DNA of 64,000 bases from Microbacterium lacus. GTDB taxonomy: Bacteria; Actinomycetota; Actinomycetes; Actinomycetales; Microbacteriaceae. How positions within the stretch are numbered: position 1 is the stretch's first letter; each line of letters starts with the position of its first letter. The notes beneath the pieces were generated by a model. It ran no database searches, was not told the DNA's origin, and saw nothing but the letters and a program-made list of their open reading frames with translations. Positions 5,138 to 46,913 of the stretch are shown here, piece by piece. The stretch covers positions 682,001-746,000 of the forward strand of contig NZ_BAAAPK010000001.1 of NCBI RefSeq assembly GCF_039531105.1, given 5' to 3'. A program made the translations under genes and the position numbers.

Positions 5138-6883
5138 ATGGCAGACGATGTGGGGTCGTCGCATGTTCGCACCGATTTTGGGGAATTGAGCGACGCCGAG
5201 CTCGTGCGCGCCACCCGGGAGGGCTCGCGGCGTGCGTATGCCGCGCTGTACGCGCGGCACTCCTCAGGCGCGCTCAAGTACGCGCGCACCCTCTCCTCGT
5301 CGGATGCCGATGACGTGGTCTCCGAGGCGTTTCTGAAGGTGTACTCCGCCCTTCGCGCGGGGAAGGGCCCCGAGGAGGACTTCCGCTTCTACCTCCGCTC
5401 AGCGGTGCGCAACACGTTCGTCTCCATGGTGCGTGCGCGCCGGACGGTCGATGCCGGTGACGCGATCGAAGAGGTCGTCGGCGATCGCGGCGCCGATGTC
5501 GCCTCGCTCCGCAGCTTCGACGGATCGACCACGGCCAAGGCTTTCCTGTCGCTGCCGGCGCGGTGGCAGGAGGTGCTGTGGTACCTCGAGGTCGAGGGTT
5601 TCAGCCGGGAGCGCACGGCCGAGATCCTGGGCATGAACGCGAATGCCGTCTCCGCACTGTCCTTCCGCGCGCGCGAAGCGCTGCGGACGGCCTGGGTGCA
5701 GCAGCATGTCGGTGCCCCGTCCGACCTCGACCGGGGCTGCGAGGCGATCTCGCCGCTGCTCGGCGCGCACTCGCGGCGGGGTCTCTCGCGACGTGACCGA
5801 CTCCGTGTCGAGCACCACCTGACCGGCTGCGTACACTGCCGCTCGATCGTCGACGAGCTGTCCGAACTGCTGACCCCCGGCCGGCTCGCTCTCGCCCTGC
5901 TGCCCCTCGTGGTCACCGGCGGTGGATTCGCGGCGTGGGCCGCGCGCTTCGGTGTGGGCTCGACCTCGATCGGTCCCGCGGCGCTCGCCTCGGCATCCGC
6001 CGCCGCGCCCTCGACCGCGCTGCTCGCGTCGGTCGGCGGTAGCACGGGTGCGGCGGCCCTGTCGGTCGTGGGCAAGGTCGCCGCGTGCGCCGTGGCGGTC
6101 GCGATGATCGTGCCGCCCGCCCAGATGCTGATCGTCGGGGCGAACGACGCGCCGCTCACCCCTCACTCCTCGAGCACGATCCATCGCGCCGTGTTGAGCG
6201 AAGACGGGTCGGATCAGGTGTCGCCGACGGGCCCGCTCGTCCACGAGTCTCCGCACACGGACCCGGCCGCGCCCGCGGATGCCGACGATCCGGTCGCGGG
6301 CGGACGGTCGGAGTGGGCGGGTACACCCGGTGGTAACCCGGACGGCGGCGGCAACGCGGCAGCCGACGCTGCCGGGGATGCCGGGGGCAATGCGAACGCG
6401 GGTGGGAGCAACCCGAATGCTGGTGGCGGAAACCTGAACGCGGGCGGAAGCAACCCGAATGCGGGTGGCGGAAACCCGAACGCGGGCGGTGGCAACGCCA
6501 ATGCCAATCCCAACGCCGGCGCGACCGGCAACACGAACTCGAAGGGAAACGCGAACGCCAGCGCGAACTCGAGCCGGAATGCGAATGCGAATGCCAACGC
6601 GAACGCGAACGCGAACTCGAGCCCGAATGCGAATGCCAACGGGAACGGCAACGGGAACGGCAACGGGAACGGCAACGGGAATGCCGATGGCAACGCGAAC
6701 GGCAAGGGGCAGCCGAGCGGCAATGCGTCCCCGCAGGCCGGCGACTCCGCCCCGAACGGCGCAGCGGCGTCGAACGGTCAGGGCAGCACCGCGCGCGGCG
6801 CGAACGCGAACAGCGCCACGACTCCCGGGGCGAAGGGCGGCCCGGCGGAAGACGCCGCACCGACGACCCCCACCGGCCCGTAG
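5138..6883 (+). CDS. sigma-70 family sigma factor fused to zinc-finger/membrane anti-sigma-like region and Asn/Gly-rich tail
   Basis: 581-residue fusion. Residues about 18-85 are sigma region 2 (YAALYARHSSGALKYART), and about 130-185 are region 4 with its helix-turn-helix (RTAEILGMNANAVSALSF). Next comes a zinc-finger anti-sigma motif HHLTGCVHCR (about residues 226-235), then two hydrophobic stretches (about 248-272 and 300-335) that could span the membrane. From about residue 385 to the end the protein is almost entirely Asn, Gly, Ala and Ser in NAGGG, NANA and NGNG repeats. The domain order suggests a sigma factor tethered and restrained by its own anti-sigma region, with the tail outside the cell (inference). 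Only 2 bp separate it from the next hydrolase gene. The tail is encoded by short tandem repeats and could vary in length between strains. Confidence 0.85.
   Translation: MADDVGSSHVRTDFGELSDAELVRATREGSRRAYAALYARHSSGALKYARTLSSSDADDVVSEAFLKVYSALRAGKGPEEDFRFYLRSAVRNTFVSMVRARRTVDAGDAIEEVVGDRGADVASLRSFDGSTTAKAFLSLPARWQEVLWYLEVEGFSRERTAEILGMNANAVSALSFRAREALRTAWVQQHVGAPSDLDRGCEAISPLLGAHSRRGLSRRDRLRVEHHLTGCVHCRSIVDELSELLTPGRLALALLPLVVTGGGFAAWAARFGVGSTSIGPAALASASAAAPSTALLASVGGSTGAAALSVVGKVAACAVAVAMIVPPAQMLIVGANDAPLTPHSSSTIHRAVLSEDGSDQVSPTGPLVHESPHTDPAAPADADDPVAGGRSEWAGTPGGNPDGGGNAAADAAGDAGGNANAGGSNPNAGGGNLNAGGSNPNAGGGNPNAGGGNANANPNAGATGNTNSKGNANASANSSRNANANANANANANSSPNANANGNGNGNGNGNGNGNADGNANGKGQPSGNASPQAGDSAPNGAAASNGQGSTARGANANSATTPGAKGGPAEDAAPTTPTGP
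6638..6679 (+). repeat. hexanucleotide tandem repeat (AACGGS)7 within coding sequence
   Basis: Seven contiguous copies of AACGGG/AACGGC encode alternating Asn-Gly. The repeat lies in the tail of the sigma fusion gene, next to longer GCGAAC-type (Asn-Ala) repeats. Because the unit is 6 bp, gain or loss of copies keeps the frame. Confidence 0.95.
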
Positions 6884-12665: not shown

Positions 12666-12806
12666 CGAGGTGGTCTCTTTCCCGCCGAGGTGGTCCCTTT
12701 CTCCCGAGGTGGTCCCTTTCCCGCCGAGGTGGTGTGCACCATCTCGGGGGGAAACCCACCATCTCGGCGGAGAACCCACCATCTCGGCGGGGAACCCACC
12801 ATCTCG
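12666..12806. repeat. converging array of 20-bp repeats (family A, copy 1; 4+4 units)
   Basis: Four units with core CGAGGTGGT begin at 12666, 12686, 12705 and 12725. They face four reversed units with core ACCATCTCG at 12738, 12758, 12778 and 12798. The period is 19-20 bp and the centre is GGTGTGCACC. The two halves are complementary, so the array could form a long cruciform or RNA hairpin. A second, longer copy lies at 34725. It contains no gene and fills the space between the subtilase terminator and the PNPOx gene. Confidence 0.9.
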
Positions 12807-12849
12807 GGGCGGAACGCGGGACAGAGGAGAAGGGAGCGGAGGGGGGGGG

Positions 12850-14675: not shown

Positions 14676-16321
14676 CCCGCCCGTCCTTCCGTCGTCGCCG
14701 GCACCGTCCACCCCACCCGGGTTCCTCCCTCGGGTCCCGGGGAGATCGTGCACGTTCCGCCGAGCAGTGCGGCGCGCTCGATCATGTTGGCGAGCCCGCT
14801 CATGTGCACATCCGGCGGGATGCCGCGCCCGTCGTCCACGACCGTGAGGGTCACGATTCCCGACTCGATGCTCAGAGCGACTTCGACGCTCTGTGCCTGT
14901 GCGTGCTTGGCCACATTCGTCAGACACTCGCGCAGCACCGCGGTCAGCTCGTCCGCGAGTCCCGTCGAGACGAGCGAGTCCAGCGCCCCGGCGAACGTCA
15001 CGCGCGGCGTCATGAGCATGCCGGTGGACAGCTCGGAGACGACGTCGAGCATCCTGTCGCGCAGGCGACGCTGCGTGCGGTCGCCCGAGCCGAGAGCGAA
15101 GATCACCGTGCGGATGTCCTTGATCGCGGCATCGAGGGCGTCGACCTGCCGTTCGATCGCGGCTCCGGCCTCGGCATCCACCGTCGTGGACACCGCCTGC
15201 AGGGACAGACCGGCTCCGAAGAGCCGCTGGATCACATGGTCGTGCAGATCGCGGGCGATCCGGGCTCGATCCCGGCTCTGATCGAGCCGACGCCGGTCCT
15301 CGCGCGCCCGCACCACCTCGATCGCGACCCCCGCCTGGCCCGCGAACGCGAACGCCATGTCGAGGTCGACGGCGGTGAAGGCCGGGGCGTTGGGGCGCCG
15401 TGAGACGGTGAGCACGCCGAGGGGCTCGTCCGCGGCGAACAGCGGGATCGCGACGGTGGGGCCGCGGTCGCTCCGGCCGTCCGGCAGGCTCTGCGCGTCC
15501 ACGCTCGCCGCCCGGCGGGTCGACAGCGCCCGCGCGGCGAGCGTGCCCGCGGCGGGAAGGATCTCGCCGCGGGCCGGTGCGCCGGGAGCCGTGCCGGCCG
15601 CACCGCGCACCGTCGTCACCCGGAACTCCTCGTCGCCGTGCGGGACCATGACCGCGACGAGGTCCACGTCCATCAGTGCGCCGACGTGGTCGGCGATCAC
15701 CTCGAGGACGTCTTCGGTGTCGGCATCCAGCATCGCCGCCATCACGTCGGCGGTCGTCGCGCTCCACGCCTCGCGTGAGCGGGTGATGTCGAACAGTCGG
15801 GCGTTCTCGATCGCGATGCCGGCGCTCGCGGCGAGCGCGACCACGAGCTCCTCGTCGTCCCCGGTGAAGGGGCCGTGGTCGCTCTCGGCCAGGTAGAGGT
15901 TGCCGTAGACCTGCTCGCCGACGCGGATCGGCACCCCGAGGAACGCATCCATCGCCGGGTGGTGGGCGGGGAAGCCCACCGAGCGGGGATCGGCGGTCAG
16001 GTTCTCGAGGCGGATGGGGGCACGATCGGCGATCACGGCACCGAGCAGTCCGCGTCCGGCCGGCAGGTGACCGATGTGGGCGACGGTCGCCGCATCGACG
16101 CCGACGTGGATGAACCGCTCCAGACCGTCGCCGTCGGCCGCGATGACGCCCAGAGCGCCGTACCGCGCGCCGACGAGGTTCATCGCCGACTCCACGATTC
16201 GGCGGAGCACGATCTCGAGGTCGAGGCGCTCCACGACGGATGTCGTCGCCCGCAGCAGATCTCGCAGTCGCCGATCCGCGCGGTCGTCGTCGACCTGCGC
16301 GTGCTGATCGGTCCGCGACAC
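14672..16321 (-). CDS. devS: GAF-domain sensor histidine kinase, DevS/DosT-like
   Basis: 549-residue soluble sensor kinase with two N-terminal GAF domains (about residues 40-180 and 200-345), a HisKA_3 dimerisation domain with the phospho-acceptor histidine in ARIARDLHDHVIQRLFGAGL, and a C-terminal HATPase domain (LRECLTNVAKHAQA, DDGRGIPPD). In mycobacterial relatives the first GAF domain holds a heme that senses O2, NO or CO; heme ligation here is not proven. I chose GTG at 16321, preceded by GGGAGG; the open frame continues to 16690 but into the stress-protein gene. Partner of devR (ATGA overlap). No membrane segment. Confidence 0.9.
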   Translation of the reverse strand: MSRTDQHAQVDDDRADRRLRDLLRATTSVVERLDLEIVLRRIVESAMNLVGARYGALGVIAADGDGLERFIHVGVDAATVAHIGHLPAGRGLLGAVIADRAPIRLENLTADPRSVGFPAHHPAMDAFLGVPIRVGEQVYGNLYLAESDHGPFTGDDEELVVALAASAGIAIENARLFDITRSREAWSATTADVMAAMLDADTEDVLEVIADHVGALMDVDLVAVMVPHGDEEFRVTTVRGAAGTAPGAPARGEILPAAGTLAARALSTRRAASVDAQSLPDGRSDRGPTVAIPLFAADEPLGVLTVSRRPNAPAFTAVDLDMAFAFAGQAGVAIEVVRAREDRRRLDQSRDRARIARDLHDHVIQRLFGAGLSLQAVSTTVDAEAGAAIERQVDALDAAIKDIRTVIFALGSGDRTQRRLRDRMLDVVSELSTGMLMTPRVTFAGALDSLVSTGLADELTAVLRECLTNVAKHAQAQSVEVALSIESGIVTLTVVDDGRGIPPDVHMSGLANMIERAALLGGTCTISPGPEGGTRVGWTVPATTEGRAG

Positions 16322-34699: not shown

Positions 34700-34724
34700 C
34701 GCGCCCGCGGCCCCGCTCGCCCGC

Positions 34725-34946
34725 CGAGATGGTCCCTCTTCTCTCGAGTTGGTCCCTCTTCCGCCGAGATGGTCCCTCTTCTCCCGAGATGGTGCACACC
34801 TTCTCGACGGAAGACCCACCATTTGGCGGGCAAACCCACCACCTCGGCGGAAGACCCACCATTTCGCGGGGAAACCCACCACCTCGGGAGAAGAGCCACC
34901 GTTTCGCGGGGAAAGCCACCATGTCGCGGGAAGACCCACCACCTCG
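34725..34946. repeat. converging array of 20-bp repeats (family A, copy 2; 4+8 units)
   Basis: Four units with core CGAGATGGT (starts 34725, 34745, 34765, 34785; the second reads CGAGTTGGT) face eight reversed units at an exact 20-bp period (34798 to 34938; cores ACCACCTCG, ACCATTTCG and variants). The centre is GGTGCACACC, which is the reverse complement of the centre of copy 1 at 12666. So the two elements are inserted in opposite orientation. Non-coding, and fills the space between xylB and the alarmone synthetase gene. Confidence 0.9.
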
Positions 34947-39422: not shown

Positions 39423-40172
39423 TCAGTCCTCGGCCGCGCCGAACCTGCGGGCGAACGCGTGCAGCAGCCGCACCGGCTCAGTGACGGATGCCGCCAGCAC
39501 CCGGCCCGCGACGGTGTCGTAGTCGTTCGCCGGGAAGTACCCGTCGTCGCGGTACACGGCCATGCGCTCGGTGAAGGCGCGGGTGGTCGGCTCGGGGTGG
39601 AACTGGGTCGCGTAGAGGCGCTCGCCCACCCGGTACGCCTGCACCGGGCAGCCCTCGTTCGTGGCGAGCAGCGTCGCACCGGGCGGCACCGCGGCGGCGC
39701 CTTCCTTGTGGGCGGTGAGTGCGGTGAACCGGCGCGCGATCGTACCGAAGATCGGGTCGACCTGCCCTTGGTCGGTGAGCTCGACGCCGACCGGACCGGT
39801 GTCCTCCGGGAAGCCTCGGCTGACCTCGCCGCCGAGGAGGCGCGTGAGGATGCCGATGCTGTAGCACGTGAACATCCCGGCCCCGCGGCCCGAGTCCAGC
39901 ACCGCCGTCGCGAGCTTCTCGAGGTCGGCCTCGAGGCGGCGCTGCACGTCGGGTTTGGCGGACTCGGGGTCGGTGACGTTGAACGGGCTTCCGCCGATGA
40001 AGAAGCCGCTGTACCGGTCCAGGACGTCGTCGGGCAGGGGCTCGTTCACGAGGTCGAGGGTCGCCAGCCGATCCGGTGAGAGGCGGGCGGCGGCGCGGAA
40101 CGATTCGTACTCGGCGACCGCGGCGAGCTGCTGCGGGCGCACGCAGACGTACAGGAGCGGCGCCGTGGTCAT
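39423..40172 (-). CDS. class I glutamine amidotransferase-like protein
   Basis: 249 residues with the GATase1 (GuaA N-terminal-like) fold and no attached synthetase domain. The nucleophile cysteine lies in GMFTCYSIGIL, a variant of the usual GICYG elbow, and the histidine-glutamate pair in QFHPEPT. FFIGGSPFNVTD is the oxyanion strand. Stand-alone members of this group hydrolyse glutamine or gamma-glutamyl compounds; the acceptor here is unknown. ATG at 40172. Convergent with the hypothetical gene and divergent from the sigma factor at 40288. Confidence 0.82.
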   Translation of the reverse strand: MTTAPLLYVCVRPQQLAAVAEYESFRAAARLSPDRLATLDLVNEPLPDDVLDRYSGFFIGGSPFNVTDPESAKPDVQRRLEADLEKLATAVLDSGRGAGMFTCYSIGILTRLLGGEVSRGFPEDTGPVGVELTDQGQVDPIFGTIARRFTALTAHKEGAAAVPPGATLLATNEGCPVQAYRVGERLYATQFHPEPTTRAFTERMAVYRDDGYFPANDYDTVAGRVLAASVTEPVRLLHAFARRFGAAED

Positions 40173-40219
40173 GCAGCGAGTTTAGACGTGCGCGCAGGCG
40201 GATTCTGAGGTCGGGGGAA

Positions 40220-40260
40220 ATGTATCCGCCGACATGTATCACGCCCGATCTTTCGCGCTC
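40220..40260 (+). promoter_or_regulatory. bipartite promoter-like motif ahead of the CHAT-locus sigma factor
   Basis: ATGTATC occurs twice (40220-40226 and 40234-40240). The second copy, extended to ATGTATCA (40234-40241), is followed after 13 nt by GCGCTC (40255-40260). An identical ATGTATCA-N13-GCGCTC lies after the last gene of the locus (45590-45616). The spacing fits an alternative-sigma -35/-10 pair, and the predicted start of transcription would be 10-20 nt before the start codon. Probably autoregulated by the sigma factor it precedes (inference). Confidence 0.6.
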
Positions 40261-40287
40261 TGTGGATGTGTGGACACAATGGGCGTC

Positions 40288-40893
40288 ATGACGCACGAAA
40301 GCGCTGGGGCTTTTGTCGACTCCGCCGAACCGACACGCTGGGAGCGGGCTGCGGCCCTGTTCCTCCGCTGGCGCGACGGGGAGACGCGGGCGATGGATGA
40401 CCTCGTGCGGCTGATGACGCCGCTGCTCTGGCACGTCGTGCGCGCATACGGCCTCGACCGGGCGCTCGCCGAGGACGTCGTGCAGACGACGTGGATGACG
40501 CTCGTGCGCCGGCACGAATCGATCACCGAGCCGCAGGCGATCTCGGGATGGCTGACGATGGTGGCGCGCCGCGAGGCGTGGCGCGTCGGCAAGCTGCAGC
40601 GCCGTGCCGATCCGACCGAGGTCGAGAGCCTGGAGGCTCACCTTCCCGCCCAGCAGTCCGCGGAGCAGACCGCATCCACCGACGACGAGTCCCGTCGCCT
40701 GTGGGGTGCCGTCTCCAGGCTGAACGACCGATGCCGGCGCCTGCTGCGCATCGTGGCTTTCGAGGAGCGCCCGGACTACGCACGCATCGCCCAGGACATG
40801 GCGATGCCGATCGGCTCGATCGGGCCGACGCGTCAGCGCTGCCTCGGCAAACTCCGCTCGCTCCTGGTGGGCGAAGGCTGGGAAGAGGACTGA
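40288..40893 (+). CDS. ECF-like sigma-70 family sigma factor of the CHAT/S8 locus
   Basis: 201 residues with only regions 2 and 4, as in ECF sigma factors. Region 2 is at about 20-90 (MDDLVRLMTPLLWHVVRAYG, EDVVQTTWMTLVRRH, ISGWLTMVARREAWR) and region 4 at about 130-190 (LNDRCRRLLRIVAFEERPDYARIAQDMAMPIGSIGPTRQRCL). No zinc-finger anti-sigma is fused or adjacent. Start codon uncertain: ATG 40279 adds three residues, and neither has a strong ribosome site. First of four tandem genes (1 bp to the next). Likely redirects RNA polymerase to the ATGTATCA-N13-GCGCTC motifs flanking the locus (inference). Confidence 0.88.
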   Translation: MTHESAGAFVDSAEPTRWERAAALFLRWRDGETRAMDDLVRLMTPLLWHVVRAYGLDRALAEDVVQTTWMTLVRRHESITEPQAISGWLTMVARREAWRVGKLQRRADPTEVESLEAHLPAQQSAEQTASTDDESRRLWGAVSRLNDRCRRLLRIVAFEERPDYARIAQDMAMPIGSIGPTRQRCLGKLRSLLVGEGWEED

Positions 40894-40894
40894 C

Positions 40895-41362
40895 ATGGAC
40901 ACCGAGGACTTCGCAGCGGACGCCGCGCTGTTCGCCCGCATGCGACTCATGTGGCAGGAGGTCGACCCCGCGCCCGCCGACCTGGTCGACCGGATGGTCG
41001 CCGCCGTCGCCGTCGAGGACCTGTCGCGCGAGTACGCGCTGCTGACCCTCGTGGAGGGCGACCTCGCCGCCGTGCGCGGCGAGAGCGACACCGCCACGCT
41101 GCAGTTCAGCGACGGGACGACGAGCGTGCTGCTGCACGTGAGCGCCACCGAGGACGGCGCGCGCCGCATCGACGGGTGGGTGGATGCCGCGGCCCTCGCG
41201 ATCCGCCTGCTGCAGGGGGAGCGCGAGTTCAGCACCGACCCGGGCGAGCACGGCCGCTTCGCTTTCGACAGCGTGCCCGCCGGTGTCTCGCGGCTCCGCC
41301 TGGTCGTCCGCGACGCCGGCGGCGAGATGCACGACTTCCAGACCCCCCAATTCGAAGTGTGA
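40895..41362 (+). CDS. small protein of the CHAT/S8 locus, candidate sigma partner
   Basis: 155 residues, no cysteine, no membrane segment. The N-terminal part (FARMRLMWQEVDPAPADLVDRMVAAVAVEDL) is helical and acidic. The C-terminal part (STDPGEHGRFAFDSVPAG, then SRLRLVV) resembles the beta-sandwich repeat of carboxypeptidase-regulatory-like domains. It starts one base after the sigma gene, so the two products are made in step. Position and size suggest an inhibitor or adaptor of the sigma factor and a possible protease substrate, but it has no zinc-finger anti-sigma signature. Function unproven. Confidence 0.75.
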   Translation: MDTEDFAADAALFARMRLMWQEVDPAPADLVDRMVAAVAVEDLSREYALLTLVEGDLAAVRGESDTATLQFSDGTTSVLLHVSATEDGARRIDGWVDAAALAIRLLQGEREFSTDPGEHGRFAFDSVPAGVSRLRLVVRDAGGEMHDFQTPQFEV

Positions 41363-41367
41363 CCTGT

Positions 41368-41397
41368 CGGATGCCGCGACGGTGGTCGCGGCATCCG
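41368..41397 (+). terminator. intra-operon hairpin between small-protein and S8 protease genes
   Basis: Perfect 13-bp arms (CGGATGCCGCGAC and complement) around loop GGTG, 5 bp after one stop and 18 bp before the next start; GAGGAGC follows at 41403. No U tract. It could lower protease expression relative to the sigma factor or set an RNA-processing boundary. Confidence 0.6.
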
Positions 41398-41415
41398 CTG
41401 TGATGAGGAGCGAAC

Positions 41416-43068
41416 ATGAGTGATCTGCCCCCCGACGACCCTGCCCGCGGAGCGGTTTCCGATCAGCGAGGAGTGCCGGGGTGGAGGCGCCGGTACGACT
41501 CCGCGCGCGCTCAGGGCGTGCCGCTCGATCCGACCAGCGAGCCGGTGCGGGGAGTCAGCGCGTATCCCACCGCGTATGCCCCCGATCATCTGCTGCTCAC
41601 GTCCGGGGAGAAGGTCGAGTCGGTCCTCGAGGTGCTCCGTCCGGCGGCGGCGGACTTCGGCTGGGGGCTGGAGCTGCAGAACCTCGACGGCTCGCCGCTC
41701 GATCCTGAGACCGCAGGGGAGCGGGCCCGTCGAGGTCGCGAGCGATTCGACCTGCCGACGATCTACCGCGTCGAGATCTTCCCCTCGCCGAGCCCGGATC
41801 GCGACGATCAGCCGGTGCCGCCGATCGACGCGTGGCGCCTGCTGCAGCGTGCCCGGGCACGCAACGGGCGGGTCATCCCCGGTGTGAGCCTCGACCACGT
41901 CCTCTCGGTCGATCCGTTCGGCAAGACGAACCCGTTCGGCAAGACCAATCCGTTCGGCAAGACCAACCCGTTCGGCAAGACCAACCCGTTCGGCAAGACG
42001 AACGCGCCGGGGGTCGACAGTTACGCCGAACCCGGCTGCGGCGGTCGCCAGGTGGTCGACTACATCGGTCCCGCGCCGCGCCGCAGCATCGCCGTCGACA
42101 AGGGTGGCAGACGGCCGGTCGTCGCAATCCTGGACACCGGTTGCGGCACGCACGAGTGGCTGACCGATGACATCGTGACGCGGTCACCGGTCGTGGACGG
42201 CGTGCGGCTCGGAGTCCACGACCCGGAAACGGATCCCGAGGTGATCGGCGACGTCTCCGGCCAGTTCGACGGGGAACTGGATGCGTCCGCCGGCCACGGC
42301 ACGTTCATTGCCGGGATCATCCGACAGGTGTGCCCGGAGGCGGACCTCGTGACCGTGCGCGTGGCAGACAGTCAGGGGACGCTCCTGGAGGGGCATTTCC
42401 TGTACGCGATCCGCACGTTGGTCAAGTGGATGCTGCTCCCGGCCGCGGAGGGCGGCCGGCGCATCGACGTGCTGAACCTCTCGCTGGGGTACTACCACGA
42501 GACCCCGGAGGACGAACTCTTCGACCGGACTCTCAGTGAGCTGCTCACGCTCGCGCGCAGGAACGGCTGTGCCGTGGTCTGCTCCGCGGGCAACGAGGCG
42601 ACCGACCGGCCCACGTTCCCCGCGGCGCTGTGGAACTGGCCCGGATCGGACTTCGCCGTCGAGGACGTCGTCGATGCCGCTCCGCATCTCGCGGTGGGCG
42701 CGCTCAATCCGAACAACAGCGTCGCCCTCTTCAGCAACATCGGCGCGTGGGTGCACACGTACGCGCCGGGGTCCGCGGTGCTGAGCACTTCTCCGCCCTT
42801 CAACGGCGGCGTCCAGGCCGGGACGCGCTCGGACCGTCTCGGGATGCGCCGAGAGACGATCGATCCCGACGATTTCACCGGCGGCTACGCGTTGTGGAGC
42901 GGGACCTCGTTCGCGGCTCCGTATGTGGCGGGCCGGCTCGCCTCCGCTCTCGTGGAGAGGCTGGCGAGTTCGGCGGACCTCGACCCGACGGCGTGCGCGC
43001 GTGTCCTTGACGAAGCGCGTGTGCAGGTGCTGGCAGAGCTGGAGAAGCGGCTGCTGCGGGCGGGGTGA
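41416..43068 (+). CDS. cytoplasmic S8 family serine protease with (PFGKTN)5 linker
   Basis: 550-residue subtilase with no signal peptide or membrane helix, so intracellular, which is unusual for S8 proteases. An N-terminal domain (about 1-160) of unknown fold is followed by five exact PFGKTN repeats (167-196) and the catalytic domain with Asp240 (VAILDTGCGTHEW), His294 (SAGHGTFIAGI) and Ser498 (WSGTSFAAPYVAG). All triad residues are present. The repeat linker sits where a propeptide boundary would be and may be a cleavage or docking site. Third gene of the locus; the TPR-CHAT gene follows after 33 bp. The likely role is a protease in a signalling cascade rather than nutrition. Confidence 0.9.
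   Translation: MSDLPPDDPARGAVSDQRGVPGWRRRYDSARAQGVPLDPTSEPVRGVSAYPTAYAPDHLLLTSGEKVESVLEVLRPAAADFGWGLELQNLDGSPLDPETAGERARRGRERFDLPTIYRVEIFPSPSPDRDDQPVPPIDAWRLLQRARARNGRVIPGVSLDHVLSVDPFGKTNPFGKTNPFGKTNPFGKTNPFGKTNAPGVDSYAEPGCGGRQVVDYIGPAPRRSIAVDKGGRRPVVAILDTGCGTHEWLTDDIVTRSPVVDGVRLGVHDPETDPEVIGDVSGQFDGELDASAGHGTFIAGIIRQVCPEADLVTVRVADSQGTLLEGHFLYAIRTLVKWMLLPAAEGGRRIDVLNLSLGYYHETPEDELFDRTLSELLTLARRNGCAVVCSAGNEATDRPTFPAALWNWPGSDFAVEDVVDAAPHLAVGALNPNNSVALFSNIGAWVHTYAPGSAVLSTSPPFNGGVQAGTRSDRLGMRRETIDPDDFTGGYALWSGTSFAAPYVAGRLASALVERLASSADLDPTACARVLDEARVQVLAELEKRLLRAG
41914..42003 (+). repeat. 18-bp coding tandem repeat, 5 units, encoding PFGKTN
   Basis: Five contiguous 18-bp units (ccgttcggcaagacSaaY) differ only at two wobble positions. 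They encode an NPF-containing hexapeptide repeat between the N-terminal domain and the protease domain. Near-identity at the DNA level suggests recent expansion or ongoing homogenisation. Confidence 0.97.
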
Positions 43069-43101
43069 CGCGCGCGTCCCGAACGGCGCCATGATGGGGG
43101 G

Positions 43102-45573
43102 ATGGCGCGTTCCGCGGCGGAACTTCACGAGACGGCGGTCCGGCTCGCGAATCAGGGGCGCCACTCCGCAGCGACCCGGCACCTGCTCACGGCTCAGGAA
43201 CTGACCGAGGATCCTGGCCTGCGGGCGCGCATCCTCGGCACTCTCGGCTACATCCGCGCGCGCACGGGCGACCCCGAGGGCGGCGAGCGGCTGTGCCGCG
43301 AGGCGATGGCACTGCCCGGGATCGACTCCCGGACGTACGCGCTCCTTTCGGGACAGCTTGGCGCCCTCGCCGAGCAGGCGGGAAGGTACGACGACTCGGA
43401 GAAGTGGCTGACGCGCGGCATCGACGCCCTGGCCGAGGACACCGAGGAGCGCGCGAACCTGCTCGTGAACCGCAGTCTCGTCAACATGCGCCGGCTCCGG
43501 TTGAGCGCCGCATCCGAGGACGCCTCCGCGGCATCGCGCATCTTCGCGTCGATCGGGAGCCCGATCGACGAAGCGCAGTCGCAGCACAACGAGGGGTATC
43601 TCGCACTCCTCGCCGGTGATCTCGTGACCGCGATGCGGGTCATGTCCGGTGCTCGCAGCACGCTCGCGGAACAGTCTCCGGTACTCGCGGCGATGTGCGA
43701 CATGGACCGTGCGGAGGTGCTTCGGGACGCCGGGCAGGTGCGAGAAGCGGAGCGCCTGCTCGCTCACGCGGCTGGAGTCTTCGGTCGTCAGCGGATGCCG
43801 CAATCTCGCGCGGAGGCCGAGTTCCACCTCGCCCGATCGCTCCTCGCGCACGACCCGGTCGGTGCGCGACCGATCGCCCGTCATGCGGCTCGCCGATTCC
43901 GCGGTCTGGGAAGCGCGTCGTGGGCCCTGCGTGCGGACGCGGTGCGTATGCGCGCCGAGCTCAGCGCGGGGCAGGTGCTGCGCAGCGGACGCCGTGTCGG
44001 CGCGACCGGTCCCGTGCCGTCGCGGTCGGAGATCGAGGAGACGGCACGCGGGCTCGCCCGTGTCGGCTTCGCCGGAGAGGCAGCCGCCCTGCGGTTCACG
44101 CACGAGGTGTGGAGCGCGCGTCACGAAGCCGTGCAGGACGTGCGGGCGCGTCCGGTGCGGCTCGTGGACGGCGCCCCGATGGAGGCGCGCACCCTCGCCC
44201 ACCAGGCTCGCGCGACCCGCGCCGAACGTCGGGGCCGGCTCGCGCAGGCTCGTCGGTTCGCCGCCGCAGGGCTGGACGAACTGGCGGAGTGGCTGAGCGA
44301 TTTCGGCAGCCTCGACCTGCAGACATCGGCGGTGATGCAGGGCAACGGCCTCCTCGGCGTGGGGCTGGCCGCAGCCGTCCGCTCGGGCCGGCCCGAGGCG
44401 GTCTTCGAGTGGTCCGAACGCGCGCGCCACATGAGCGCGCAGGTTCTGCCTCTCCGGCCACCGCCGGACCCCCAGCTGGCGGAGGACCTCTCCGAACTGA
44501 GGATGCTGCGCGCGGACGGCGGGGACTGGCAGTCACAGCCACGGGCGCGCGAACTTCGTGAACGCATCCGCGACCGCCAATGGTCGACGACCGGCGGTGC
44601 AGCCCTCCAGAACCGCGTCGGGCTCGACGACCTGCGCGAGGCGCTGGATGAGGAAACGGCGGTCCTCTCGTTCGTCTTCTCCGGGGACTCTTTGCACGTG
44701 CTGGTGACGCGGCGTTCCGATGTCGCCCTCGTCGACGTCGCGGAGTGGCCACGCGTCCGCGATGCGTTGCCGGGCTTGCGCTCGGATCTGGACATGGCGG
44801 CGTCCGTGCGCGGCCGGATGGGGGAGATCGTCCGCCGCTCGCTCGATGATCGCCTGGCGGCGCTGTCGGCGGTGCTGATCGATCCCGTCCTTGCGCGACA
44901 CTCTGCCCAGCGCTGCGTGATCACCGTGCCTGGGGTGCTGAGCGGCATCCCGTGGTCGATGCTCCCGGGTCTGCGCGGCTCGGCCGTCACTCTCGCCGGT
45001 TCGGCGTCGCGATGGATCCATCAGCGCGGACAGGAGACTCGGCTCGAGACGGCTGCGTTCGTCGCCGGTCCGCGCGTGTCGCGGGCTCAGGAGGAGATCG
45101 CCGCGGCGTCCGTGACCTGGCGCTCGCCGGTGATTCCGGATCCCGCGACCGTCGATGTCGTGACCGACCTCTCGTCGAGCGTCGACGTCCTGCATGTCGC
45201 CGCCCACGGCCGTCATTCCGCCGACACCCCGATGCTCTCGGGCCTGGACCTCACTGACGGCACGCTGTTCGGCTACGACATCGACCGGATGGCGAAGGTG
45301 CCGTCGCTCGTTGTGCTCTCGGCGTGCGAGGCGGGTCGCTCGTCCGTACGGTGGGGGGAGGAGGCGATCGGCATGACGCGTGCGTGGCTCCACGCAGGCA
45401 CCCGGTGCGTGATCGCCGCGCCGGTGGTCGTCGCCGACGACGACGCGTGCGAACTGCTGGCGGCGATGCACGAAGGGCTGGCTGCGGGTGAGGAGCCGGC
45501 AGTGGCCCTGGCGGCGGCATCCGCGCGCACGGGCATCGTCGCGCCGTTCCAGGCCCACGGATCCGGCTTCTGA
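43102..45573 (+). CDS. TPR-CHAT caspase-like protease
   Basis: 823 residues. About 1-420 is a helical TPR array (pairs such as AAELHETAVRLANQGRHSAA and ARILGTLGYIRARTGDPEGG). About 530-823 is a CHAT domain of the caspase/separase clan, with the catalytic histidine His702 in VLHVAAHGRHS and cysteine Cys742 in LVVLSACEAGRSS. Upstream blocks ITVPGVLSGIPWSMLPGL and RCVIAAPVVVADDDACELL are typical of CHAT. No signal peptide. TPR-CHAT proteases cleave specific partner proteins after an activating signal; here the partners are probably encoded in the same locus. Last of four genes, followed by the second bipartite motif. Confidence 0.93.
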   Translation: MARSAAELHETAVRLANQGRHSAATRHLLTAQELTEDPGLRARILGTLGYIRARTGDPEGGERLCREAMALPGIDSRTYALLSGQLGALAEQAGRYDDSEKWLTRGIDALAEDTEERANLLVNRSLVNMRRLRLSAASEDASAASRIFASIGSPIDEAQSQHNEGYLALLAGDLVTAMRVMSGARSTLAEQSPVLAAMCDMDRAEVLRDAGQVREAERLLAHAAGVFGRQRMPQSRAEAEFHLARSLLAHDPVGARPIARHAARRFRGLGSASWALRADAVRMRAELSAGQVLRSGRRVGATGPVPSRSEIEETARGLARVGFAGEAAALRFTHEVWSARHEAVQDVRARPVRLVDGAPMEARTLAHQARATRAERRGRLAQARRFAAAGLDELAEWLSDFGSLDLQTSAVMQGNGLLGVGLAAAVRSGRPEAVFEWSERARHMSAQVLPLRPPPDPQLAEDLSELRMLRADGGDWQSQPRARELRERIRDRQWSTTGGAALQNRVGLDDLREALDEETAVLSFVFSGDSLHVLVTRRSDVALVDVAEWPRVRDALPGLRSDLDMAASVRGRMGEIVRRSLDDRLAALSAVLIDPVLARHSAQRCVITVPGVLSGIPWSMLPGLRGSAVTLAGSASRWIHQRGQETRLETAAFVAGPRVSRAQEEIAAASVTWRSPVIPDPATVDVVTDLSSSVDVLHVAAHGRHSADTPMLSGLDLTDGTLFGYDIDRMAKVPSLVVLSACEAGRSSVRWGEEAIGMTRAWLHAGTRCVIAAPVVVADDDACELLAAMHEGLAAGEEPAVALAAASARTGIVAPFQAHGSGF

Positions 45574-45589
45574 GAAAAGTCAGCCGGGG

Positions 45590-45616
45590 ATGTATCAGAC
45601 CTGAGCGGTTGCGCTC
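45590..45616 (+). promoter_or_regulatory. second ATGTATCA-N13-GCGCTC motif, downstream of the CHAT gene
   Basis: ATGTATCA (45590-45597) and GCGCTC (45611-45616) with exactly the same 13-nt spacing as at 40234-40260, starting 17 nt after the CHAT stop. No annotated plus-strand gene follows; a hairpin comes about 110 nt later. Candidate promoter for a short transcript under control of the locus sigma factor. Confidence 0.55.
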
Positions 45617-45723
45617 CTTCATCGTGGAGCGGCCCTGCAGTCCGGAACCGGGGGGTAACGGATATTGGGGGCGCAGGATCCATGGGGCGCGATGGGGGCG
45701 CGAGGATCCTGTCGGGCTGCTCC

Positions 45724-45765
45724 GCGGGGGATGTCGCGGAAACCCAACTCGGCGACATCCCCCGC
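45724..45765. terminator. bidirectional hairpin terminator between CHAT locus and LysR-like gene
   Basis: Perfect 14-bp arms (GCGGGGGATGTCGC and complement) with a 14-nt loop, ending one base before the stop codon of the leftward gene. It closes transcripts from both sides. Confidence 0.75.
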
Positions 45766-45766
45766 T

Positions 45767-46480
45767 TCACGTCCGCGACGAGTTCGCGCTGCGTCCGCGC
45801 ACGATCCCGATGAAGGTCTCCACGGCCGGCGTGGTCCGATCGGTCGGCCAGGCCAGCGCGACGGTGGACGTCGGCGCCTCCCGCAACGGGCGCGACGCGA
45901 CGTCCTTGCGGCGATGCAGCCGTGCGAGCGACATCGGCGCGATCACGATCCCGACGCCGGTCGCGACGACGGCGACCGCCTGCTCGGTGTCCTCCGGGGC
46001 GTCGAACGCCGGCGCGACCGTGCCGGCAACGCGGATGCCGAGCGCGTCGTCGCGCGGCACGATGAGCACTTCGCCCGCGAGGTCCTCCGGCGCGAGCTCG
46101 TCGACCGTGGTCAGGTGCGAGTCGGAGGGGCAGATCACGACGGTCACCTCGTCGTACAGCGGGATGACGCTGAGCCCGTCGCGCTCGATCGGCAGCCGGA
46201 CCAGCGCCGCGTCCAGATCGCCCGCCAGGAGCCGCGACCGCTGATCCGCCACGGAGATCGGCTCGAGCTCGAGCGGGGAGAGCGGCATCCGCTCGCGCCA
46301 CGCGTCGATCCAGCCGCCCGGCGTCGCCCCGGGGATCGCGCCGAGCACGAAACGCTCCGGGGGCGGAGGCGGTGCGATCGGCTCAGGGGTCTTCGCCGGT
46401 GTCTTCGCGCGCTTGTTCACGGGCGCTTTGTGCGCCGACGGGCGGGGCTTTCCAGACCGGGACCCGCCGCCTTTCGCCAC
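45767..46480 (-). CDS. orphan LysR-type substrate-binding (effector) domain with basic N-terminal tail
   Basis: About 237 residues from GTG at 46480 (alternatives ATG 46516 or 46528). The C-terminal 195 residues are a LysR effector domain (FVLGAIPGATPGGWIDAW, DLDAALVRLP, VVATGVGIVIAPMSLARLHR). The expected winged helix is replaced by a 45-residue Lys/Arg/Pro-rich segment (KGGGSRSGKPRPSAHK and PAKTPEPIAPPPPPE). It therefore cannot be a normal LysR regulator. It may bind a ligand and use the basic tail for nucleic acid or protein contact; function unknown. The upstream alternatives would overlap the divergent gene's start codon (CATG). Confidence 0.72.
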   Translation of the reverse strand: MAKGGGSRSGKPRPSAHKAPVNKRAKTPAKTPEPIAPPPPPERFVLGAIPGATPGGWIDAWRERMPLSPLELEPISVADQRSRLLAGDLDAALVRLPIERDGLSVIPLYDEVTVVICPSDSHLTTVDELAPEDLAGEVLIVPRDDALGIRVAGTVAPAFDAPEDTEQAVAVVATGVGIVIAPMSLARLHRRKDVASRPLREAPTSTVALAWPTDRTTPAVETFIGIVRGRSANSSRT

Positions 46481-46514
46481 GGACTCAGCGTAGCCGGGGC
46501 GATAGTGTTCGCTC

Positions 46515-46913
46515 ATGATCGCCGTCATCGCCTCGGTCTTCGCGGGCCTCGCCGCCCTGCTGCACGTCTACATCTTCATCCTCGAGAGCGTGCGCTGGCG
46601 CACGCCGCGGGTCTGGAAGACGTTCGGCGTCGCCGACCAGGCCGCCGCCGACATCACGCGGCCGATGGCGTACAACCAGGGCTTCTACAACCTGTTCCTC
46701 GCGATCGGAGCGGCGTTGGGGCTCGTCCTCTACTGGGTCGGCGCTCCCGACTCGGGCCTGCGCATCGCCGGATTCACCCTCGTGCTGTTCAGTGTCGGCT
46801 CGATGCTCGCGGCATCGCTCGTGCTCATCTCGTCCGGCAAGCGCTACCTGCGGCCCGCGGCGATCCAGGGGACGCTGCCGCTCCTGGCGTTCGTGCTGTT
46901 CCTGCTCGCCTGA
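46515..46913 (+). CDS. DUF1304 family membrane protein
   Basis: 132-residue integral membrane protein with four predicted helices. The family blocks ESVRWRTPRVWKTFGV and MAYNQGFYNLFLAIGAALGL are intact. DUF1304 proteins are widespread and of unknown function. ATG at 46515, directly divergent from the LysR-like gene; no ribosome site is evident, and a TAGTGT hexamer 8-13 nt upstream suggests a leaderless or very short-leader transcript. Confidence 0.85.
   Translation: MIAVIASVFAGLAALLHVYIFILESVRWRTPRVWKTFGVADQAAADITRPMAYNQGFYNLFLAIGAALGLVLYWVGAPDSGLRIAGFTLVLFSVGSMLAASLVLISSGKRYLRPAAIQGTLPLLAFVLFLLA

Follow-up and report, generated by a model that had tools for sequence, protein, structure and literature searches.

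Four same-strand genes of Microbacterium lacus, encoding an extracytoplasmic function (ECF) sigma factor, a 155-residue small protein, an S8 protease (subtilase) and a CHAT protease with tetratricopeptide repeats (TPR), form a conserved unit, and their products may act as a switch that controls an ECF54-type sigma factor through proteolysis in the cytoplasm, a proposal that in its full length we regard as evenly poised between right and wrong. The genes lie within a 64,000-nucleotide stretch (NZ_BAAAPK010000001.1, positions 682,001 to 746,000), referred to below as the window. Within the proposed chain, the CHAT protease most likely links an input from the subtilase to the small protein and the sigma factor.

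A conserved four-gene unit

Open reading frame (ORF) calls and family profiles bore out the gene content of a preliminary description made from the sequence. The sigma factor has regions 2 and 4 (TIGR02937, E 7.6e-18, residues 53-210; Sigma70_r2, E 3.5e-9), and the small protein begins one base after its stop codon. The S8 protease (PF00082, E 1.9e-23) carries the triad Asp240/His294/Ser498, invariant in 23 of 23 aligned rows, and the five-repeat linker reported for it, an 18-base unit in 5.0 copies (41914-42003), while His702 and Cys742 of the CHAT protease (PF12770, E 5.5e-27) are invariant in 23/23 aligned rows. The locus had been drawn to end at 45765, whereas the CHAT gene stops at 45573; the former position closes a hairpin that belongs to a further element, a promoter-like site with a structured RNA, which had gone unreported. 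Because the called sigma start overlaps the conserved promoter-like element described below, translation probably begins at 40279 or 40288 rather than at 40234.

Searches with the small protein yielded 54 close loci (52 Microbacterium, one Actinomycetes bacterium and one Planococcus), among them L034, which is more than 99% identical to the window locus. All four genes were present in 49 of these 54; four of the remaining five are cut by contig ends, and the other, L055, is an 18-residue match only. A broader small-protein profile (A8, E ≤ 0.001) matched 34 of 296 sampled actinobacterial genomes, spread over 25 of 198 genera, and the small protein occurred in 29 of 59 Microbacterium genomes (E ≤ 1e-10). 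Among 24 distant loci, defined as small-protein matches outside Microbacterium up to about 2e-11, 15 hold all four families and L140 lacks S8 only; of the incomplete ones, L136 and L137 belong to a genome (G042) that has a complete set elsewhere, five have their CHAT gene elsewhere in the genome, with S8 adjoining in four of the five, and L150 is a 6.8-kb contig. The CHAT subfamily was found in 29 genomes, and 22 of these belong to the 34 (of 296) in which the small protein was matched, where arithmetic predicts 3.3. The co-occurrence that the preliminary description had put forward for checking is thus borne out in both sets, and because gene order varies among the distant loci (S8-sigma-small-CHAT in L067, L069 and L070; S8 divergent in L071 and L073), it is not a matter of frozen synteny.

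Several loci deserve mention in their own right. L031, labelled Planococcus, bears a Microbacterium-like locus and is probably a mislabelled or mixed assembly. In L075 (8243-12281), ABC transporter genes, phosphonate-like by eye, are inserted between the S8 and CHAT genes. The label "Streptomyces-like", used below for some distant genomes, is a guess.

Tandem repeats at a predicted pro/mature junction of the S8 protease

Structural modelling suggests that the S8 protease is a pro-form with the repeats at its pro/mature junction. Pro-forms align with the model over 287-310 model residues, starting at residues 37-58, and mature subtilisins align over about 220 residues, starting after 217; a propeptide domain thus precedes the catalytic domain in the model, as in a zymogen. 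The pro-form assignment rests on this structural match. In profile comparisons the propeptide-like domain did not resemble the propeptides that six distant, secreted relatives of the S8 protease carry; an I9-type propeptide, sought through the same six, was not supported. Inspection by eye of the window protein, which is apparently cytoplasmic, turned up no export signal. Elsewhere, an S8 protein in L151 (8767-10257) has a Tat-like signal by eye and could for that reason be extracellular in its lineage. On a deeper branch (L164, L165, L166, L167, L169 and L170), S8 proteins have signal-like starts and classical-looking propeptides and no repeats, and the small protein is diverged, with none found in L170.

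Within the Microbacterium set, the repeat array stands at one place in 54 of 55 S8 proteins (window copy L001 included), the only protein without it being cut at a contig end. Units are 5-8 residues long and present in 3-8 copies; the window has NPFGKT, and other members have NPYGST, NPHGMT, NPFTG or LPFGAS. Repeats also occur in 9 of 29 distant S8 proteins (GYGDGV, GPFTSG, HPMYDG, HPFWGG, HPFWVG, NPAYQG, NPGYQG, NPAYQA and TPYPGG), and in none of the four Streptomyces-like ones. Between adjacent units of 51 loci (L001, L034, L054 and L006 omitted), 453 of 839 synonymous sites differed (pS 0.54) against 94 of 2665 nonsynonymous sites (pN 0.035, a value capped by the choice of arrays, since units were picked at ≥ 80% alike). 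The large excess of synonymous over nonsynonymous differences between neighbours suggests that the copies are old and that their protein sequence has been kept uniform.

Covariation of the repeats with the CHAT TPR domain

Covariation was scored in 49 loci, omitting L001 (the window copy), L034 (almost the same sequence as the window locus, with its sigma gene truncated), L039 (CHAT ORF below 780 residues), and L006, L031, L054 and L055 (contig ends or short match). Mean identity across these rows was 71% for the sigma factor and small protein, 40% for the N-terminal part of S8 and 54% for its catalytic part. Among 153 pairs whose small proteins are ≥ 85% identical, the 143 with different repeat units diverged by 47% in S8, 52% in the TPR half and 32% in the CHAT catalytic part; the corresponding figures for the 10 pairs that share a unit were 19%, 16% and 19%. 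Repeat distance correlated with S8 and CHAT, most strongly with the TPR part of CHAT, and hardly with the sigma factor (-0.00) or the small protein (0.06). When all other segments were conditioned on, repeat-unit distance had its largest partial correlation with CHAT residues 1-200, at 0.29 (0 of 1000 permutations as high), and after redundancy was reduced to 42 rows the value was still 0.275 (0 of 1000). For the first S8 catalytic part it was 0.23, and for the S8 N-part 0.11. The C-terminal part of S8, which lies physically between the repeats and CHAT, gave -0.07, and plain linkage was rejected on that ground as the whole cause of the repeat-TPR link.

A single position stands out in this signal. 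None of the 1389 columns scored across the four proteins was as informative about repeat residue 3 as CHAT column 199 (1.36 of 1.44 bits); raw values of the 24 other columns listed reached 0.93 at most. In the 49 loci, Tyr at repeat residue 3 goes with Gly at CHAT 199 (13/13), His with Asn (6/6), Val with Ile (1/1) and Phe with Cys, Ser or Ala (28/29, L029 having Asn). Residue volumes were inversely ranked (rho -0.91, over related rows). Among ten further cases, nine distant and one more from Microbacterium, the same tendency is seen in NPA-Leu (L071, L141), NPG-Ile (L139), NPF-Ser (L075, the Microbacterium case) and HPFW-Ser (L070), and within the single genome of L068 one cassette pairs GPF with Ala and the other HPMY with Gly. 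One row per class together with the ten further cases (14 rows) gave a permutation P of 0.013. On a CHAT tree built without column 199, the Tyr state required six changes, two of them forced by supported branches, and Gly accompanied Tyr in both supported independent pairs. Because repeat residue 3 predicts CHAT residue 199, docking of the repeats on the TPR domain of CHAT is probable, and we read the two residues as a size-complementary pocket.

A number of observations weigh against this proposal or confine it. The size rule is broken by L069 (HPFW-Pro), L067 (GYGDGV-Ala) and L168 (TPYPGG-Ile, a misfit unless the repeat is read as YPG), and the ten further cases by themselves gave rho -0.38 (P = 0.28), or -0.66 (P = 0.053) without L168. 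Two forced Tyr switches are too few for significance (sign test, P = 0.5), and the sole independent His pair shows no change at residue 199, because L029 has a Phe repeat and yet retains Asn. It is clear that S8 and TPR are inherited together and, because the two genes adjoin, this explains part of the repeat-TPR link; the partial value between the S8 N-part and CHAT 1-200 is also an odd -0.30. With repeats in so few of the distant S8 proteins, the pathway in general cannot depend on docking by them. Further along the chain, profile searches, the family profile included, gave no anti-sigma family match for the small protein, and the direction of proteolysis is a guess.

The small protein and its tie to the sigma factor

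The model of the small protein shows a confidently predicted beta-sandwich (residues 66-149) of CarboxypepD_reg/Ig-like type. A preceding stretch (residues 26-53) has many invariant residues and low model confidence when modelled alone, which would suit a segment that folds on a partner. CarboxypepD_reg was matched at E ≤ 1 in 10 of 19 family members (best 7.7e-7), the window member not being among them. These matches fit the "carboxypeptidase" printed beside ECF54 sigma factors; we presume that a small protein of this type is not an enzyme and may be what that word denotes.

Distances in the sigma factor and the small protein correlated at 0.87 (partial 0.77), part of which adjacency of the genes may explain. 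In L068 (6243-17681), two S8-CHAT cassettes with different repeat units (GPFTSG and HPMYDG) each have a small protein and share a single sigma gene, and G042 has three small-protein matches, one of them (L136) directly behind a promoter element. Because there is one small protein per cassette and one sigma gene in L068, and three matches in G042, we propose that the small protein is an adaptor between the sigma factor and the S8-CHAT cassettes.

A promoter-like element beside the genes

A conserved element, [TGC]GTATCA-N14..16-NCTC and mostly TGTATCA-N15-GCTC, which we read as an ECF-like -35/-10 pair, lies ahead of the sigma gene in every one of 52 loci (the window and 51 others) and follows the CHAT stop in 47 of 50, with both sites present in 46. 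Over 809 kb of the close loci the sites favour the coding strand by 103 to 4, and the window has 2 matches against 0.01 expected. When both strands of the 24 distant loci were searched, 27 of 33 sites adjoined these genes, four of the 27 falling where the sigma gene ends and the small-protein gene follows, which could be a coding coincidence; the element precedes S8 in the Streptomyces-like L144, L147 and L148, and none was found in L137, L143, L149 or L151. Because the distant sites cluster beside these genes, promoter and sigma factor appear to have stayed matched. We infer that the sigma factor uses the element, and its conservation ahead of the sigma gene suggests autoregulation, at which the preliminary description had hinted.

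Sites elsewhere point to a regulon that varies among lineages, because second or other sites precede S8, secreted proteins or a trypsin-like protease in different loci. A second site precedes S8 in L030 and L039. Of 11 sites elsewhere that were viewed, some precede secreted proteins (L140, twice) or AAA-type regulators (L144, L147), and those in L136 and L142 precede genes of the system itself. In L069 (11375-12952) a divergent copy lies ahead of what is by eye a trypsin-like protease with Cys-Pro-Trp-rich C-terminal repeats. The sites before AAA-type regulator genes (by eye) in the Streptomyces-like genomes, L144:14887 and L147:819, lie some kilobases away from the locus. The genome that contains the window had three further pattern matches outside the locus, at C1:916409, C1:971287 and C2:125754 of G000, against two for a reversed control pattern; the three are possible extra regulon members.

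A probable structured RNA after CHAT

About 140 bases follow the second element and end in a strong hairpin, probably as a structured RNA. In 20 sequences, 8 of the 14 predicted pairs of the hairpin had changes on both sides. The strands of the closing stem of the body paired better with each other than with strands swapped between 45 genomes (L034 and L015 omitted): the sum was -757.9 against a mean of -579.2 (sd 20.1), with 0 of 20000 swaps as low (8.9 sd). A control pairing the 5' strand with a middle segment deviated as well, to a lesser degree (8 of 5000 as low, 3.3 sd). Fold z-scores were modest alone (mean -1.9; 17 of 45 below -2), and the inner part of the RNA aligned poorly with MAFFT. 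Runs of GGGG in hairpin loops numbered 1.16 per molecule against 0.18 in shuffles (44 molecules, L050 also omitted), and such runs could form quadruplexes or pair with C-rich RNA.

A covariance model, R1 (E ≤ 0.0011), detected the RNA in 32 of 52 Microbacterium sources, a number that includes 11 training rows; the 8 distant loci scanned gave no match. Over whole Microbacterium genomes it matched 10 of 59, though 29 of 59 hold the small protein; the model is narrow. Structured stretches with G-rich loops (z -2.4 to -5.0) follow five sites without an evident downstream gene, in L071, L141, L068, L146 and L067. Rfam gave no match at the gathering score in the window, L024, L071, L141 or L068, and a known RNA family was rejected as an explanation when a lax threshold returned only a chance-level miRNA row (E 0.92, 45924-45980). 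Three occurrences stand out. One of the ten genomes, G298, is a fragmented assembly with RNA and promoter (C114:806-945) but no small-protein match; L024 has the RNA a second time (15801-15977), some 3 kb farther downstream and behind a promoter-like site of its own; and the window's genome has a weak second R1 match (G000:C1:70976-71103, E 6.4e-4), another possible regulon member.

Features of the locus and the window

The features are collected in the table below. PADLOC returned only weak generic subtilase, IetS and BovA rows, and assignment to a known defence system was rejected. Away from the locus, the window has two groups of 20-base tandem repeats of related sequence at 12666-12815 and 34724-34941 (CGAGGTGGTCCCTTTCCCGC, GGAAAACCCACCATTTCGCG), and a tract with repeats of 6/21/42 bases at 6393-6727 that perhaps encodes an Asn-rich segment.

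Table. Positions of the genes and predicted elements of the locus, numbered within the window
Feature	Position	Strand	Remark
Sigma factor ORF as called	40234-40893	+	Regions 2 and 4
Promoter-like element TGTATCA-N15-GCTC ahead of the sigma gene	40235..40260	+	Overlaps the mechanical ORF start
ECF sigma factor, probable extent	40279..40893	+	Start at 40279 or 40288
Small protein, 155 aa	40895..41362	+	N-terminal helix, low-confidence conserved stretch 26-63, beta-sandwich 66-149; proposed sigma-binding adaptor
S8 protease, 550 aa	41416..43068	+	Modelled as pro-form
Propeptide-like domain of S8 protease	41566..41904	+	Residues 51-163
Tandem repeat array DPFGKT-(NPFGKT)n of S8 protease	41911..42003	+	Predicted pro/mature junction
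S8 catalytic codon Asp240	42133-42135	+	
S8 catalytic codon His294	42295-42297	+	
S8 catalytic codon Ser498	42907-42909	+	
TPR-CHAT protease, 823 aa	43102..45573	+	
CHAT codon 199	43696..43698	+	Cys in the window; TPR position following repeat residue 3
CHAT catalytic codon His702	45205-45207	+	
CHAT catalytic codon Cys742	45325-45327	+	
Second promoter-like element TGTATCA-N15-GCTC	45591..45616	+	3' of the CHAT stop
Predicted small RNA with GGGG hairpin loops	45624..45765	+	Putative 5' end
Terminator-like hairpin of the small RNA	45724..45765	+	

Discussion

In the mechanism we propose, the S8 repeats, a disordered array after the propeptide-like domain, would dock in the CHAT TPR domain, with repeat residue 3 packing against CHAT residue 199, a contact that the sequences strongly indicate, so that the S8 protease and the TPR half would make up a fast-changing input module. 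The small protein would pair with the sigma factor and link it to each S8-CHAT cassette, probably as a soluble sigma inhibitor that active CHAT cuts. A signal may alter the docked S8, by cleavage at the repeats or by loss of the propeptide, and thereby activate CHAT; from TGTATCA-N15-NCTC promoters the freed sigma factor would then transcribe its own operon as well as, in the case of Microbacterium, the GGGG-loop small RNA after CHAT, as conservation of the sites suggests. Cutting of the small protein by CHAT, the inhibition of sigma and the input signal are steps that we infer.

The preliminary description knew of no characterised example with this gene set, and yet the set is already in print: section 3.3 of a 2022 review (PMC8999054) describes actinobacterial ECF54 sigma factors beside carboxypeptidase, subtilase and CHAT genes and proposes proteolytic control. 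The present locus resembles ECF54 in its region 2/4 sigma factor and in the carboxypeptidase-type, subtilase and CHAT genes that adjoin it, and differs from ECF54 as described in that section by the tandem repeats, the TPR pairing rule, the TGTATCA promoter and the small RNA. By title or abstract, no other description of the gene set appeared among the listed open-licence PubMed Central matches, and ECF54 is not named in the part of PMC9205884 that was covered. The modelled pro-form with repeats at its junction, the repeat-TPR pairing, the TGTATCA element and the small RNA did not turn up in the open-licence PubMed Central literature searched.

An unlikely alternative, with the mode of control that the review proposes for ECF54, is that degradation of the sigma factor by the proteases keeps the system silent; the small protein would be a helper and there would be no anti-sigma step. 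The small protein's want of an anti-sigma match would agree with this, but its gene lies directly 3' of the sigma gene and co-evolves with it, with the reservation about adjacency given above, and the arrangement in L068 suits an adaptor or an inhibitor. A kinship with type III-E CRISPR systems, in which the locus would be a CRISPR-free relative of the protease pathway and the small protein a Csx30-like substrate, had been suggested in the preliminary description and now seems very improbable. In type III-E (Cas7-11-Csx29, Csx30 and CASP-sigma; PMC10028731), as here, a TPR-CHAT protease is tied to a sigma factor through a partner, and Csx30 binds and inhibits CASP-sigma according to that paper, which also gives Csx30 at least 565 residues, against 155 in the small protein. 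However, the small-protein profile had no Csx30 match in the PDB at E ≤ 10, and the CHAT profile retrieved at E ≤ 1 only TPR-type or other helical chains and no Csx29. Csx30 was also absent from the 50 structural rows listed for the small protein, which does not exclude a likeness of fold, and no Cas gene was seen among the six genes at 39423-46528 (the four and two flanking genes), where no dedicated search for Cas7-11 or a CRISPR array was made. Unlike type III-E, moreover, the locus has an additional S8 protease. The four-gene unit, the intact catalytic residues and the hint of autoregulation are supported, then, and the Csx29/Csx30 kinship is not; the logic of the two systems may be alike by convergence.

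Two further explanations concern the repeats. RRNPP receptors bind, through a TPR domain, linear peptides of a length similar to the repeat units, and by analogy the S8 protease might process itself at the array and shed 5-8-residue peptides that bind the CHAT TPR domain as a signal. Peptide-sized repeats at a pro/mature junction, kept alike in many copies and differing between lineages yet matching TPR residue 199, would suit this, and the junction array, in an apparently cytoplasmic protein, sets the window S8 apart from pro-subtilisins and PCSK9 (3whi, 2z2z, 6u2f). Docking without release explains the same data, however, no export signal was noticed on the window S8, and kinship of the CHAT protease with NprR is confined to a generic TPR match (E 0.58), its output being CHAT rather than DNA binding, all of which makes shed peptides a distinctly unlikely account. 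We give hardly any credence to the repeats being a neutral slippage linker, with the residue-199 pattern hitchhiking on shared ancestry. The repeats are indeed lineage-restricted, the S8 and CHAT genes adjoin and are exchanged together, Mantel-type tests are sensitive to relatedness, and few independent switches are forced; against this stand the excess of synonymous over nonsynonymous differences between units, the isolation of column 199 among 1389 columns that share the same ancestry, and the lack of partial correlation in the physically closer C-terminal part of S8.

The docking mechanism and the peptide signal can also be joined in one picture, which we think unlikely as a whole: lineage-specific junction peptides of an S8 zymogen would serve as a barcode, read by a one-residue size key in the TPR domain and shed as multicopy intracellular signals, upon which CHAT would cut a soluble sigma inhibitor, with the GGGG-loop RNA as the main output, making a polymorphic, self-specific alarm across actinobacteria.

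In the open-licence literature searched, control of ECF54-type sigma factors has so far only been proposed (PMC8999054, section 3.3), and the analysis yields parts that can be tested, namely a promoter sequence, a probable RNA output and a putative pair of binding partners for which a specificity swap between CHAT 199 and repeat residue 3 is predicted. If the proposed switch is true, it would be a CRISPR-independent case of caspase-like proteolysis wired to transcription, and its input module would evolve far more rapidly than its output module, as is typical of systems for conflict or self-recognition.

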